IMG/VR virus record: IMGVR_UViG_3300027978_000308
Location: 1 to 24,020 of that record
DNA length: 24,020 bases
DNA from: a virus
Strand: one strand, 5' to 3'
The notes under the pieces are model-generated. The model was not told where the DNA came from. It made no database searches and saw only the letters and a list, made by a program, of their open reading frames with translations. A program made the position numbers and the translations under genes. Shown piece after piece: positions 6,811 through 10,696 of this stretch (position 1 is the stretch's first letter; the number at the start of each line of letters is the position of its first letter).

Positions 6811-7067
6811 ATTCGCTTGAAAAAATGCTACAAAAAGCAAAACAAGATCCCATCGACCATAGCGCACCCTTGCCGTTAGTAGATAAAGCATTTGATGTTA
6901 TTAATAACGATGATTTAACTTTTACTGAAAAGAAAATAAAAATTGATGTTCTAGAGCAGCAGGCCAGTGGCTATGAGTTAACTTGTTTTAGTGACGTGCA
7001 TGAGGCACTACTAGTTAACGCAAGCATGGCAGAGTTATCAGCATTAGATGAAGCTGAACAAGATTAA
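6807..7067 (+). CDS. Small acidic protein between MuF and gpG
   Basis: I do not recognise this 86-residue protein. It is strongly acidic (18 Asp/Glu against 7 Lys, no Arg), has no membrane segment, and appears mostly helical. Its ATG overlaps the MuF stop by four bases (ATGA), so its translation is probably coupled to MuF. Its own stop overlaps the gpG start (TAATG). Mu itself has no gene here. The position right behind a MuF protein with an extra enzymatic domain, the small size and the acidity would fit an immunity protein for that domain. It could equally be a head assembly accessory. Confidence 0.75.
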   Translation: MNSLEKMLQKAKQDPIDHSAPLPLVDKAFDVINNDDLTFTEKKIKIDVLEQQASGYELTCFSDVHEALLVNASMAELSALDEAEQD

Positions 7068-7507
7068 TGGCAGGCTCGTTTGTTAGTGTTGATATTCGTG
7101 GTCAAAAGCAAGTAGCCCAAGCGTTAAATCGCTTGTTAAAGCAGGGGGGGGATCTTGAACCAGCCTTCCGAGACATTGGTGAATACTTATTAGAATCAAC
7201 CCAGCAGCGCTTTATTGACCAACAAGCTCCAGACGGTGAGCCGTGGGAACCACTTTCACCACAAACACTGAAAAACAAAAAGCGTCAAGACAGAGTATTA
7301 ACTGAAACAGGTACGCTTGCCGATACCTTGAATTATCAACTAGGTAATAATCAACTAATGCTTGGCTCTAATCTTGAGTATGCAGCAACTCATCAATTTG
7401 GTCGTGAAGCTGATGGTATACCCGCACGACCTTTTTTAGGGGTAGCCCCATTTGAACAAGCTGAAATACTCTATATTCTCCGTGATCATTTAGCAGATGG
7501 TATTTAA
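7067..7507 (+). CDS. Phage virion morphogenesis protein, Mu gpG-like (gp31)
   Basis: The 146-residue protein matches the phage virion morphogenesis family (Mu gpG): a QRFIDQQAPDGEPWEPLSP block near residues 48-66, then KKRQDRVLTETGTLADTL, and a C-terminal YAATHQFGREADGIPARPFLG stretch around 105-125 that is the family signature. It acts in head or head-tail completion. The start overlaps the upstream stop by one base. It is the last structural gene before the accessory insertion at 7508-9425. In Mu the next gene would be the protease I, which here follows only at 9485. Confidence 0.92.
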   Translation: MAGSFVSVDIRGQKQVAQALNRLLKQGGDLEPAFRDIGEYLLESTQQRFIDQQAPDGEPWEPLSPQTLKNKKRQDRVLTETGTLADTLNYQLGNNQLMLGSNLEYAATHQFGREADGIPARPFLGVAPFEQAEILYILRDHLADGI

Positions 7508-7568
7508 TCATAATTCAATGATTTACCTCAAAGCCCTGTAAGCTATTTTCTCGCCTTAAATTGTGAAT

Positions 7569-7643
7569 CTGGTATATTGCCCCAAGAAATTCAAATAAAT
7601 TCAACAGTGAAGTTTTTAAACGGGTGTTAAATGGGTATGGAAG
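7569..7643 (+). repeat. Leader repeat, copy 1 (direct repeat with 8506-8580)
   Basis: This 75-base segment precedes and enters the first putAbiC-like gene. It aligns without gaps to 8506-8580 with 69 of 75 bases identical. The last 51 bases (7593-7643) are a perfect match and include the ATGGGTATGGAAG start. The noncoding part is AT-rich. It may carry promoter and 5' untranslated region. Confidence 0.9.
7570..7578 (+). promoter_or_regulatory. Candidate extended -10 promoter element
   Basis: TGGTATATT reads as an extended -10 (TGn plus TATATT, five of six bases of TATAAT). No convincing -35 is seen 16-18 bases upstream. The second leader has TATACT at the same place (8510-8515), without the TG. 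If used, transcription would start near 7585 and the perfectly conserved block would be the 5' untranslated region. Weak call. Confidence 0.3.
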
Positions 7644-8509
7644 TGGTAAAAGGTAATAGGGAGTTCGACTATAAAAAGTTGGTCGTTAATATGCTATGGT
7701 TTGTAGTAATCATTTTTTTGTTAGCAATAAGTATTTATATCGATAGGTTTGGTTTTTTCTTTCCACTTGAGACACTCGGAACGCTTGAGCAGTTTGGCTC
7801 ATTTGGTGACTTTGTTGGTGGGATGATGAATCCTTTGTTGCAATTTATTGTAATAGCTATGTTGTTTTGGAGTATTCAAATTCAACAAAGAGAATTAGCT
7901 CTGACTAACGAGACATTACAGGCAACCAGAGAAGAGATTAAAGAAAGTCGTGAAGCTACACAGGCAAGTGCTGCAGCATTACAGGCTCAGGCTAAATTTC
8001 AACGCACTCAATTAGAACTAACTGCTATTGAAGGTGTTTTAAGTAAGTTGTTACTTGATTTAGAAGATAATAGTAAGAGAGGCCGGTTTGCTATAGGTTT
8101 GATAAATGAGGAGTCATTGTTTGATCTAAATATTAATGAAATAGTTTTACATATTAATAAAAAAGGATATAGGGCTATATGTGAAGCAACATCTTACAAC
8201 GATGATGAGGAAAACCAACAAATATTATTTAGGGTTCATGATCTTTTGGCGGAACTTCAAGGTTTATTGTTGAAATACGTACAAGAAGATGGCTCTCAAT
8301 ACGTTGTAGAACATTGGTTGAAAAATATATTTCCTTATCTGGTGTTTTTAAATAAATATGCCATTGTTGCTCCGTATTCTTGTGTTAATGAGCATGATAA
8401 AATTCTTGATGCTATGATTGATTTTTTTGCCTGTAGGGGCGTTGATTTTGGTTTTATTAAAGATAAATATTCAATGCGCTCACTTTTATATTCTGAGTTC
8501 TGTAACTAG
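7631..8509 (+). CDS. putAbiC-like membrane protein, copy 1 (putative phage abortive infection)
   Basis: This 292-residue protein has a membrane segment at about 17-38, a glycine-rich motif FGSFGDFVGGMMNPLLQF at 55-72, a second membrane segment (to about 83), a charged coiled coil (about 84-130) and a helical C-terminal domain. Membrane proteins with a GDFxGGxxNPLLxF motif followed by a coiled coil are annotated as putative phage abortive infection proteins (putAbiC). A defence or superinfection-exclusion role is inferred. The start sits inside the leader repeat; GGTG at 7623-7626 is the only Shine-Dalgarno-like site, and the ATG at 7637 is an alternative. The gene is AT-rich and lies between gpG and gpI, where Mu has no gene. 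Confidence 0.85.
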   Translation: MGMEVVKGNREFDYKKLVVNMLWFVVIIFLLAISIYIDRFGFFFPLETLGTLEQFGSFGDFVGGMMNPLLQFIVIAMLFWSIQIQQRELALTNETLQATREEIKESREATQASAAALQAQAKFQRTQLELTAIEGVLSKLLLDLEDNSKRGRFAIGLINEESLFDLNINEIVLHINKKGYRAICEATSYNDDEENQQILFRVHDLLAELQGLLLKYVQEDGSQYVVEHWLKNIFPYLVFLNKYAIVAPYSCVNEHDKILDAMIDFFACRGVDFGFIKDKYSMRSLLYSEFCN

Positions 8510-8580
8510 TATACTGCCAGAAGAAATCTAAATAAATTCAACAGTGAAGTTTTTAAACGGGTGTTAAATGGGTATGGAAG
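8506..8580 (+). repeat. Leader repeat, copy 2 (direct repeat with 7569-7643)
   Basis: Second copy of the 75-base leader, offset by exactly 937 bases. It begins inside the end of the first putAbiC-like gene, whose TAG stop (8507-8509) lies within the repeat. It then runs through the noncoding spacer into the start of the second gene. Bases 8530-8580 are identical to 7593-7643; the six mismatches lie at 8508, 8514, 8519, 8520, 8528 and 8529. Confidence 0.9.
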
Positions 8581-9425
8581 AAGTTGAAAAGAGCGTTAAA
8601 GATGATGAAACAGAATATAGTAATAAACCTTGGGATATTATTGTTTATTTTGCTTTAGTTGCTGTAACTCTTATTGGGGCTTTAGAGCTTTACAATTTTT
8701 TTAATTTTTTCCCTGGAAGTGAACATAGCCATGAGGCGTGGGGAACAACGGGAGATTTTTTTGGAGGTACATTAAACCCTCTGTTGCAGTTTGTTGTGAT
8801 TGCGATGTTGTTTTTGAGCATTCATATTCAAAAGAATGAATTGAAGATTTCTAACGCCACCTTACGTGCTACTCAAGCTGATCTAGCAGAAACTCAAAAA
8901 ACAAGCGTGAAACAAGCTGAAGAATTAGAGAAGCAAACTGAAATCCTAAAGCAACAACAACAAGATAATTTAGAACAAATTAAAGTTGCTCAAGAAATCT
9001 CAATATTAGACAAGCAAAAAGAAGTTCTAGAGAAACTTCTTTACAAACCAATCTCTCACTGGAGAGAAGAAAAAACTACTATTAATATGGTAATAAATGA
9101 CCCTACATTAATTAAAGATGACTTTTTTTTAGGATCAGAGGAAACTAGCTATCAGAGAAAGATCTCGGCAAACATATCAGTGGTTTTACATCGCTTATCT
9201 ATGAGTTTATGCGCATTGTTAGAATGCAAAAATATACCAGTTACTACAGCTACTATTGAAACAGAGTGGCTTATCGGTAATTTATATAAATTGAATAAAA
9301 CCAATGTAGTAGGTAACAAAGTGTTGGTTGAAATTAAAAATGACCTCTATAACAAAGTACATGGTTCAACATTAGATATTAAAAATAAAGAGTTATTAGA
9401 AGATATCATGAGCGTTCTAACTTAA
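8568..9425 (+). CDS. putAbiC-like membrane protein, copy 2
   Basis: The 285-residue paralogue of the preceding gene has the same plan: polar N-terminus, membrane segment at about 22-42, motif GTTGDFFGGTLNPLLQF at 59-75, second membrane segment to about 88, and a long glutamine- and lysine-rich coiled coil (about 90-150) with a different helical C-terminal domain. The motif and second membrane segment (NPLLQFxVIAMLFxSIxIQ) are nearly identical to copy 1, but the C-terminal halves show little visible similarity. The start lies in the second leader repeat, giving the same MGMEE/MGMEV opening. Sampled 60-base lines are near 30 percent GC, against about 45 percent in a sampled portal line, which suggests a different origin. 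The two may form a hetero-oligomer or have different triggers. Confidence 0.85.
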   Translation: MGMEEVEKSVKDDETEYSNKPWDIIVYFALVAVTLIGALELYNFFNFFPGSEHSHEAWGTTGDFFGGTLNPLLQFVVIAMLFLSIHIQKNELKISNATLRATQADLAETQKTSVKQAEELEKQTEILKQQQQDNLEQIKVAQEISILDKQKEVLEKLLYKPISHWREEKTTINMVINDPTLIKDDFFLGSEETSYQRKISANISVVLHRLSMSLCALLECKNIPVTTATIETEWLIGNLYKLNKTNVVGNKVLVEIKNDLYNKVHGSTLDIKNKELLEDIMSVLT

Positions 9426-9462
9426 ATTTAAGCATTAACCCCCCTGAATCTCAGTAATTAAC

Positions 9463-9489
9463 TTCATAACGCCATACTGGCGTTATGAA
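9463..9489 (+). promoter_or_regulatory. Perfect 11-bp hairpin covering the gpI start codon
   Basis: TTCATAACGCC (9463-9473), loop ATACT (9474-9478) and GGCGTTATGAA (9479-9489) form a perfect 11-bp stem. The ATG at 9485-9487 lies in the 3' arm. There is no T-run, so it is not a standard terminator. It could limit initiation on the protease gene or mark an insertion boundary. Confidence 0.6.
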
Positions 9490-10696
9490 AACATTCCCAA
9501 GCAAAAAATCACTCAGCCGAAACCTTGGCTTAGCCATTCTGACAAAACAAGTGCCAGCCAATGTTGCGGTACTTACCTTTGCTGATAGTGCAATTGAGCC
9601 AAGCGCAAGCAATCGTGTGCAAATTTTACCTGATGGCTATTTCACCCCAACTGACAATAGAGATATTGATGTTGAGGGCGGCAAATGGCTAATGGATGCT
9701 CAAGCATTCACCTCATTAACTGCAAACCTAAACCAACGTAAAAATGACTTGATGTTTGATTACGAACATCAAACCCTTTATACCGAAGAGAACGGACAGC
9801 CAGCTCCTGCTGCAGGATGGTTTAAAAAATTAGACTATGTGCCTGGTGAAGGTTTATTTGCTGTAGATGTTGACTGGACAAAAACAGCCGCCAAACACAT
9901 TAATGATAAAGAATATCGTTATACCTCAGCGGTATTTTCATATGACCTTAAAACAGGTCGTCCCCTTGAGTTAATGCATGTTGCTTTAACCAATGACCCC
10001 GCGCTTGATGGCATGAAAGCTATTGCTGCCTTAAAGAGTGCCCTAAAAACAAAGAATCACTTAACTGGCCACGCTGCCACCCCAACCGGAGAAATCCCCA
10101 TGAATGAAGCATTAAAACTCATGCTTGATTTGCTTGGTATTGCGCATACCGACGACGAACTGTCGAATACTGCTGCTTTAACTGCAATTCAAGATAAAGC
10201 CAAGGTGGCTATAGCTGCGCTTAAAAGCAAAGCAGATAAAGCTGGCCAACTTGAAAAAGATTTAAATACCGCACAAACCTCGGTTACTGCACTTAAAGCA
10301 CAAGCCACTGCAGCAGGGAGCAATGTTGATTTAAGTAAATTTGTACCTAAAGCAACTTACGATGCTGCTATTAACCAAGTAGCTACTTTAAAAGCCAAGG
10401 GTGATAACAACTCGGTTGAGCAGTTACTAAAAGACAATAGCGATAAGGTGTTTGAGTCTGAAATTGACTACTTAACTGATTTTGGTAAGCAACAAGGTTT
10501 TGCTGCACTTAAAGCCATGGTTGATGCACGCCCAGCAATTGCGGCATTAAAAACCACTCAAACTAAAGGCAAAGAAAAGCCTGATAACACTATCACAGGC
10601 ACAGCTGCATTGACCGCTGAGCAAAAATATACCGCTGATCAACTTGGCCTTAGCCATAAAGATTATTTAGCGCAACTTAACAAGACCAATACCTAA
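9485..10696 (+). CDS. Phage protease with scaffold region, Mu gpI-like
   Basis: The 403-residue protein is the head maturation protease of Mu-like phages (gp32/I). The N-terminal half (to about 180) carries the protease, with VQILPDGYFTP, FDYEHQTLYTEENGQPAPAAGW and KEYRYTSAVFSYD; the conserved H and S within these blocks are the likely catalytic residues. The C-terminal half (from about 206) is alanine- and lysine-rich and coiled coil, typical of the scaffold. No good Shine-Dalgarno precedes ATG 9485, which is buried in a hairpin. The family protease cleaves the scaffold and itself during prohead maturation. The capsid gene follows directly. Confidence 0.88.
   Translation: MKTFPSKKSLSRNLGLAILTKQVPANVAVLTFADSAIEPSASNRVQILPDGYFTPTDNRDIDVEGGKWLMDAQAFTSLTANLNQRKNDLMFDYEHQTLYTEENGQPAPAAGWFKKLDYVPGEGLFAVDVDWTKTAAKHINDKEYRYTSAVFSYDLKTGRPLELMHVALTNDPALDGMKAIAALKSALKTKNHLTGHAATPTGEIPMNEALKLMLDLLGIAHTDDELSNTAALTAIQDKAKVAIAALKSKADKAGQLEKDLNTAQTSVTALKAQATAAGSNVDLSKFVPKATYDAAINQVATLKAKGDNNSVEQLLKDNSDKVFESEIDYLTDFGKQQGFAALKAMVDARPAIAALKTTQTKGKEKPDNTITGTAALTAEQKYTADQLGLSHKDYLAQLNKTNT
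10100..10696 (+). CDS. Internal in-frame scaffold protein, Mu gpZ-like
   Basis: An in-frame ATG (M206 of the protease) is preceded by GGAG at 10088-10091 with an 8-base spacer, a better initiation site than the one at the gene's own start. Initiation here gives a 198-residue protein with only the coiled-coil scaffold part (MNEALKLMLDLLG onwards). Mu makes its scaffold Z from an internal start in I in the same way, so a separately translated scaffold is likely. This rests on site quality and analogy; no product is observed. Confidence 0.55.
   Translation: MNEALKLMLDLLGIAHTDDELSNTAALTAIQDKAKVAIAALKSKADKAGQLEKDLNTAQTSVTALKAQATAAGSNVDLSKFVPKATYDAAINQVATLKAKGDNNSVEQLLKDNSDKVFESEIDYLTDFGKQQGFAALKAMVDARPAIAALKTTQTKGKEKPDNTITGTAALTAEQKYTADQLGLSHKDYLAQLNKTNT

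Follow-up and report, generated by a model that had tools for sequence, protein, structure and literature searches.

We find that the interval between gpG and gpI of Mu-like phages is an accessory-gene slot. In the 24-kb Mu-like virus record analysed here (IMGVR_UViG_3300027978_000308; all 24,020 nucleotides are referred to as the window), this slot is occupied by two genes only, A1 and A2, each of which is preceded by one copy of an 83-nt direct repeat resembling the strong gyrase site (SGS) of phage Mu. The explanation we favour is that the slot lies at the central SGS and is filled by a tandem of two cargo units, each with an SGS gate, a right arm and a single gene, and that each of the two proteins is probably a superinfection-exclusion or abortive-infection factor. 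The features of the locus are:

7067..7507, plus strand: gpG homologue (Phage_tail_S; Pfam PF05069, E = 2.2e-35), left border of the slot
7561..7643, plus strand: SGS-like element, copy 1 (direct repeat; aligned to the right arm of the Mu SGS; homologues in the G–I interval of relatives), predicted gate at ~7580 and right-arm core at 7612–7636
7631..8509, plus strand: cargo gene A1, 292 aa, two-TM/coiled-coil protein (ORF; PHROG 8999, E = 6e-11; model pLDDT 65)
8498..8580, plus strand: SGS-like element, copy 2 (89% identical to copy 1), predicted gate at ~8517 and core at 8549–8573
8568..9425, plus strand: cargo gene A2, 285 aa, paralogue of A1 with a different C-terminal domain (ORF; PHROG 8999, E = 5e-11; model pLDDT 74)
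9427..9489, plus strand: right border, with trailer, presumed late-promoter region and start-codon hairpin (conserved in L009, L010 and L014)
9485..10696, plus strand: gpI homologue (Mu-like protease; Pfam PF10123, Mu-like_Pro, E = 2.9e-89), right border of the slot

The same locus is present in a near-identical and near-complete record of 36.9 kb (IMGVR_UViG_3300005609_000319), the left end of which carries repressor, MuA-like and MuB-like genes, named by reading the ORFs. In Mu itself, the G–I gap is free of genes and includes the late promoter of I, a terminator and a site cut by gyrase, so that a preliminary description of the window, made from its sequence, correctly placed the two genes where Mu has none. 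By analogy with Mu, we presume that the right border includes the late-promoter region.

A slot with exchangeable cargo

A survey that combined gpG, gpI, named phages and a search for A-type proteins (those with the motif GDFxGGxxNP, as found in A1 and A2) yielded 138 G–I intervals, or 100 after removal of near-duplicates. Among the 88 clusters that were found without reference to cargo, the interval is shorter than 450 nt in 39 and holds cargo in 49, fractions that describe the nearest 79 of 579 gpI relatives and not all Mu-like phages. The flanking intervals exceed 450 nt in 3 of 95 cases (F–G) and 6 of 94 (I–T). The cargo includes DRT RT_VI (E = 3e-96), AbiTii (E = 5e-36), a PP2C phosphatase with two Ser/Thr kinases, a KAP NTPase (PDC-S20), a DUF2971 protein (PDC-S31), a DNA methylase and an AntA antirepressor, and AcrF2 of D3112 and AcrF1 of JBD30 occupy the same place between G and I. 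The presence of recognised defence and counter-defence genes in the slot of related phages agrees with the earlier view of A1 and A2 as an accessory pair.

Turnover of the cargo is evident within the clade of the window, in which gpG is 87–90% identical: every lineage has a different content, the slot holding A1 and A2, one A-type gene, a lipoprotein gene, an AntA gene or nothing. The interval is thus empty or filled with other genes in close relatives, and A1 and A2 are not conserved structural genes. Where near pairs could be compared (the window clade and L029–L031/L055), divergence of the DNA sets in roughly where the SGS core ends, a pattern that would fit exchange at the SGS and, equally, simple functional conservation of the SGS. 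Fixed slots in which antiphage genes are swapped form the defence hotspots of P2 and P4 temperate phages; the window has in common with these the exchange of antiphage genes at a fixed slot, whereas the phage type differs and the slot of the window coincides with a cis-element of replication.

The region corresponds to RGP G of Pseudomonas Mu-like phages, for which no recombination target adjoining the variable regions was reported and the origin was called ‘mysterious’ (PMC4378225). The window resembles this anti-CRISPR locus (D3112 and JBD30; PMC4378225) in the use of the gpG–gpI interval, in its low-GC, horizontally acquired cargo and in its presence/absence polymorphism. It differs in that the cargo consists of two large membrane proteins, with no acr or aca gene named in the slot by family searches (Pfam, PHROG, PADLOC and NCBIfam), and in that the SGS-like element is both recognisable and duplicated. 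An unpublished remark by Pato, in the form quoted in PMC8705779, holds that the acr genes of D3112 sit where the SGS would be expected, and the conservation of gyrase sites among transposable phages is called unclear (PMC8705779).

A duplicated element with probable homology to the Mu gyrase site

The 83-nt repeat, which the preliminary description did not mention, is identical between its two copies at 74 of 83 positions (89%), and its last 51 nt are exact, compared with a longest exact repeat of 14–15 nt in shuffled windows. The copies lie 937 nt apart, one before each gene, with the stop codon of A1 (8507–8509) at the start of copy 2 and the start codon of each gene inside the conserved GTTAAATGG of the repeat. 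Directly after the repeat, the coding DNA of A1 and A2 is 64% identical. A 21-nt piece of this leader, scanned over 84,980 genomes, was found at two loci, both in the G–I interval of related prophages; simple searches with the leader against phage and plasmid sequences returned a 25-nt match at chance level at best, and Rfam gave nothing for the region. The leader is followed by an unrelated lipoprotein gene in Colwellia psychrerythraea ND2E, by a single A-type gene in Gammaproteobacterium 42_54_T18 and by a mere 14-codon remnant in L014, which indicates that the leader belongs to the phage backbone and that the genes behind it are exchangeable.

The Mu SGS is 150 bp long, with an essential right arm that was footprinted from +26 to +85 and of which the first 40 nt are essential (PMC6463007), and with a dispensable left arm (PMC10052514). 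The right arm of Mu (..CCACGGGATTTTTAAACCGGTATTTAACGGTGTATGAA..) aligns with the window (..ACAGTGAAGTTTTTAAACGGGTGTTAAATGGGTATGGAA..), and Mu spacing places the gates of the two copies at ~7580 and ~8517, within a conserved GTATAYTGCC, so that the repeat would span the gate and the right arm, which Mu requires. The copies are located ~20.4 and ~21.4 kb into the 36.9-kb contig, between G and I and roughly midway along the phage genome, as is the case for Mu-type SGS. Both the Mu site and the window element lie just past G, with a gate-to-right-arm spacing of ~33 nt (a value set by the alignment) and the same TTTTTAAAC...GTATTTAA / GTGTTAAA phasing. Unlike the Mu site, the window element occurs in two separate copies with a gene after each, is ~24/40 identical to the Mu arm and is known here from sequence.

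A comparable element is found 50–110 nt past gpG in distant Mu-like phages, in empty and filled slots alike. An SGS matrix (PWM) built from 12 distant Mu-like phages, with neither Mu nor the window included, gives the annotated SGS right arm a score of 25.6 on Mu, where the next best match scores 8.6. Its best match across the locus falls inside the slot in 52 of the 88 slots outside the training set, with 10.8 expected, a set that still includes near relatives of the training phages. The two copies in the window have a core score of 15.3 and rank second and third there, shuffled maxima averaging 13.1, and the occurrence of an SGS-like match within the G–I interval of the window has a P value of 0.012; L017, from the same clade, scores 19.7. 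The full 42-nt matrix did not find the window copies. With the Mu arm alone as the query, the leader copies come out as the two best matches of the window, at 24/40 identity, a level that is not significant genome-wide. Homology therewith supports a reading of the repeat as a putative SGS, strongly across the slots of these phages and moderately for the window taken alone.

The stretch that separates the acr genes from the protease gene in D3112 and JBD30 contains, on the minus strand, GATTTCTAACGGGGTTCTAACGGGG (L088, near 4155, and L089, near 1373), which is possibly a GC-adapted, inverted SGS arm.

Tandem units of SGS-like element and gene

To our reading, SGS-plus-gene units in tandem are a new arrangement. 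It is seen again in two Shewanella-type phages (L092 and L101), in which an SGS with a gene for 211 aa is followed by a further SGS-like copy (~60 nt of which are recognisable in the alignment) with a gene for 309 aa. Recurrence rests on these two cases, the window and L092/L101, the tandem of the window being documented by two near-identical records, possibly derived from a single sample and possibly not independent. In L055, two A-type genes are present without a second SGS, the first of them truncated to 117 aa. Extra second SGS matches in L046, L107, L137, L141 and L142 looked like chance occurrences within genes or like weak neighbouring matches, and were not counted.

The tandem may have arisen by recombination at the SGS. 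A wider proposal, which we put forward tentatively and consider doubtful, is that the SGS is where cargo docks in transposable phages: its sequence conservation or the breaks made by gyrase would drive recombination, SGS–gene units would be gained, lost and stacked in tandem, and the window, as SGS-A1-SGS-A2, and L092/L101 would each capture one moment of this process.

Two membrane proteins with a common anchor and different C termini

A1 and A2 each have two hydrophobic segments followed by a ~100-residue helix, and share the motif GDFxGGxxNPLLQF (GDFVGGMMNPLLQF in A1 and GDFFGGTLNPLLQF in A2). They are 38% identical over residues 1–132 (E = 2e-23), beyond which BLASTP finds nothing meaningful, and their GC contents are 33.8% and 32.5%, respectively, versus 41.1% in the rest of the window. 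The preliminary description of two paralogous, AT-rich genes for two-segment membrane proteins, with a shared membrane module and differing C termini, is confirmed in all these respects. The sole true profile matches of A1 and A2 are PHROGs of unknown function, as is the function class of PHROG 8999; Pfam, PADLOC 2.0.0 and NCBIfam gave no meaningful match, with one spurious weak PADLOC hit for A1 and none for A2. Fold searches with the structure models, which are of modest confidence (pLDDT 65 for A1 and 74 for A2), highlighted nothing significant and long-helix matches only (A2 against the PDB and BFVD, A1 against BFVD), and a profile search of PDB sequences with the window proteins gave nothing significant.

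The two proteins had also been called putAbiC-like, which stands for their N-terminal module and fails for membership of the family. PF16872 (putAbiC) is an 80-position model of a C-terminal domain with a cut-off of 22 bits, and it matches nothing in the window, in A1 or A2 (hmmscan) or in 18 slot homologues, whereas the positive control, WP_224723887.1 from a Vibrio plasmid (‘putative phage abortive infection protein’), matches at 56 bits. The N-terminal two-helix GDFxGGxxNP module is homologous to that of this protein (hhalign 98.6%, E = 8e-16, 86 columns), and tblastn to the putAbiC-annotated protein gives 39% over 99 aa (E = 2e-6); the homology is restricted to the module. The putAbiC proteins thus have the two-helix module in common with A1 and A2 and, unlike them, carry the PF16872 domain at the C terminus. 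As far as such profiles tell, the putAbiC label rests on the common anchor and not on the family-defining domain. A relative with the putAbiC domain is found on the Vibrio parahaemolyticus plasmid pVPTW011 (L006, 4959–5816), in a cassette array of integron-like type that includes attC/VCR-like repeats.

A-type proteins are encoded in 9 of the 49 cargo clusters, and 1.0 Mb of sequence beyond the slots contains no instance of the motif; a position-free profile search added ~14 further slot cases in divergent phages, several of them in reverse orientation. In one group of marine phages, the first ~105 residues are 78–84% identical and the remainder 34–42%. A dN/dS of ~0.24, with synonymous sites near saturation, carries no sign of positive selection, which puts C-terminal replacement or fast divergence on a par with selection acting on individual residues. 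Other viral A-type copies are single and lie among phage genes, and solitary copies in other phages oppose their neighbours; judged by this distribution and by the Vibrio gene in its cassette array, the genes appear to be mobile and stand-alone.

Several slots combine A-type genes with others. In Shewanella phage MuM16-1 (L005, 4014–6837), RT_VI (E = 3e-96) and an HTH gene accompany an A-type gene on the opposite strand, with an SGS-like element between. In L094 (1416–4631), a PP2C phosphatase and two Ser/Thr kinases adjoin the A-type gene and could be a kinase–phosphatase defence cassette. In L095, L098 and L107, the A-type gene is in every case preceded by one for a coiled-coil protein of ~408 aa that has a membrane segment at its C terminus, and the gene pair is possibly a two-gene version of the system.

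Function and alternative explanations

We infer the antiphage function of A1 and A2, of exclusion or Abi type, from a variable sensor joined to a constant anchor, a defence-rich neighbourhood and a single-gene distribution. Each would be an inner-membrane protein with an N-terminal two-helix anchor carrying GDFxGGxxNP, a cytoplasmic coiled coil and a variable C-terminal helical domain. In the lysogen, A1 and A2 would most likely each act alone, the C-terminal domain by recognising a product of an invading phage and the conserved part in the membrane by blocking entry or damaging the membrane.

A role in counter-defence, in which both proteins would shield this phage while it is itself infecting a cell, as do the slot anti-CRISPRs of Pseudomonas phages, would be in line with AcrF1 and AcrF2 in the same slot of JBD30 and D3112 and with the co-orientation of A1 and A2 with the late operon. 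We regard it as unlikely, however, as Acr proteins are small and soluble whereas A1 and A2 are coiled-coil membrane proteins of ~290 aa, and as a Shewanella-type homologue that opposes the late operon, together with the solitary copies that oppose their neighbours elsewhere, suits expression in the lysogen. The preliminary description raised an obligate two-component system, with A1 and A2 as partners in a hetero-oligomer. Their adjacency, common orientation and common N-terminal module, and the occurrence of two such genes in L055, speak for it, but L010 and most relatives have a single gene, the first copy in L055 is truncated and in the window an SGS-like leader stands before each gene separately; two independent units account for the pair better, and we consider an obligate system quite improbable. 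That A1 and A2 serve as virion, morphogenesis or lysis-control proteins would account for their place inside the head-gene cluster, yet is highly improbable given that they are absent or replaced in close relatives with 80–90% identical head genes and that their PHROG matches are of unknown function and not structural.

For the repeat, the main alternative is an expression leader, comprising an extended −10 promoter and a ribosome site, with paralogues that were tandemly duplicated together with their promoter. Its position directly 5′ of each ORF, the inclusion of the start codon in a conserved stretch and the resemblance of TGGTATATT to an extended −10 all suit a leader, but copy 2 has TAGTATACT, in which the TG of the extended −10 is lost, the element is also present in emptied slots (L014, L057, L061 and L063) and is probably homologous to the mapped SGS of Mu, and the 64% identity of the coding DNA past the repeat excludes a recent whole-gene duplication. 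We give this explanation a low probability as a replacement for the gyrase site, and the repeat may serve both roles, as leader and as SGS. It is hardly credible that the genes are integron cassettes and the repeat their attC site. GGGTGTTAAAT does resemble the end of an attC, and the Vibrio plasmid relative lies in the integron-like array with attC/VCR-like repeats, but the repeat stands 5′ of the genes, visual inspection reveals no evident attC pairing, and the element is phage backbone that empty slots contain too. On the basis of position and of this inspection, attC was rejected.

A slot at the SGS joins two literatures, that on the central gyrase site of Mu and that on the locus of anti-CRISPR and defence genes in Mu-like phages. 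The SGS-like element is a concrete candidate for the recombination target lacking in PMC4378225 and bears on the question of SGS conservation in PMC8705779. The slot is also a place in which to seek new antiphage genes, as about half of the sampled Mu-like clusters carry cargo, most of it unnamed, and the two-helix proteins with swapped C termini are a recurring, uncharacterized candidate family.

At the right border of the slot, a perfect 12-nt inverted repeat, TTCATAACGCCA-TAC-TGGCGTTATGAA (9463–9474 and 9478–9489), has a 3′ arm that includes the start codon of gpI. A hairpin at or adjoining the gpI start codon is found in ~20 of the 100 slots, often with compensatory changes, and possibly provides translational control of the protease/scaffold gene.
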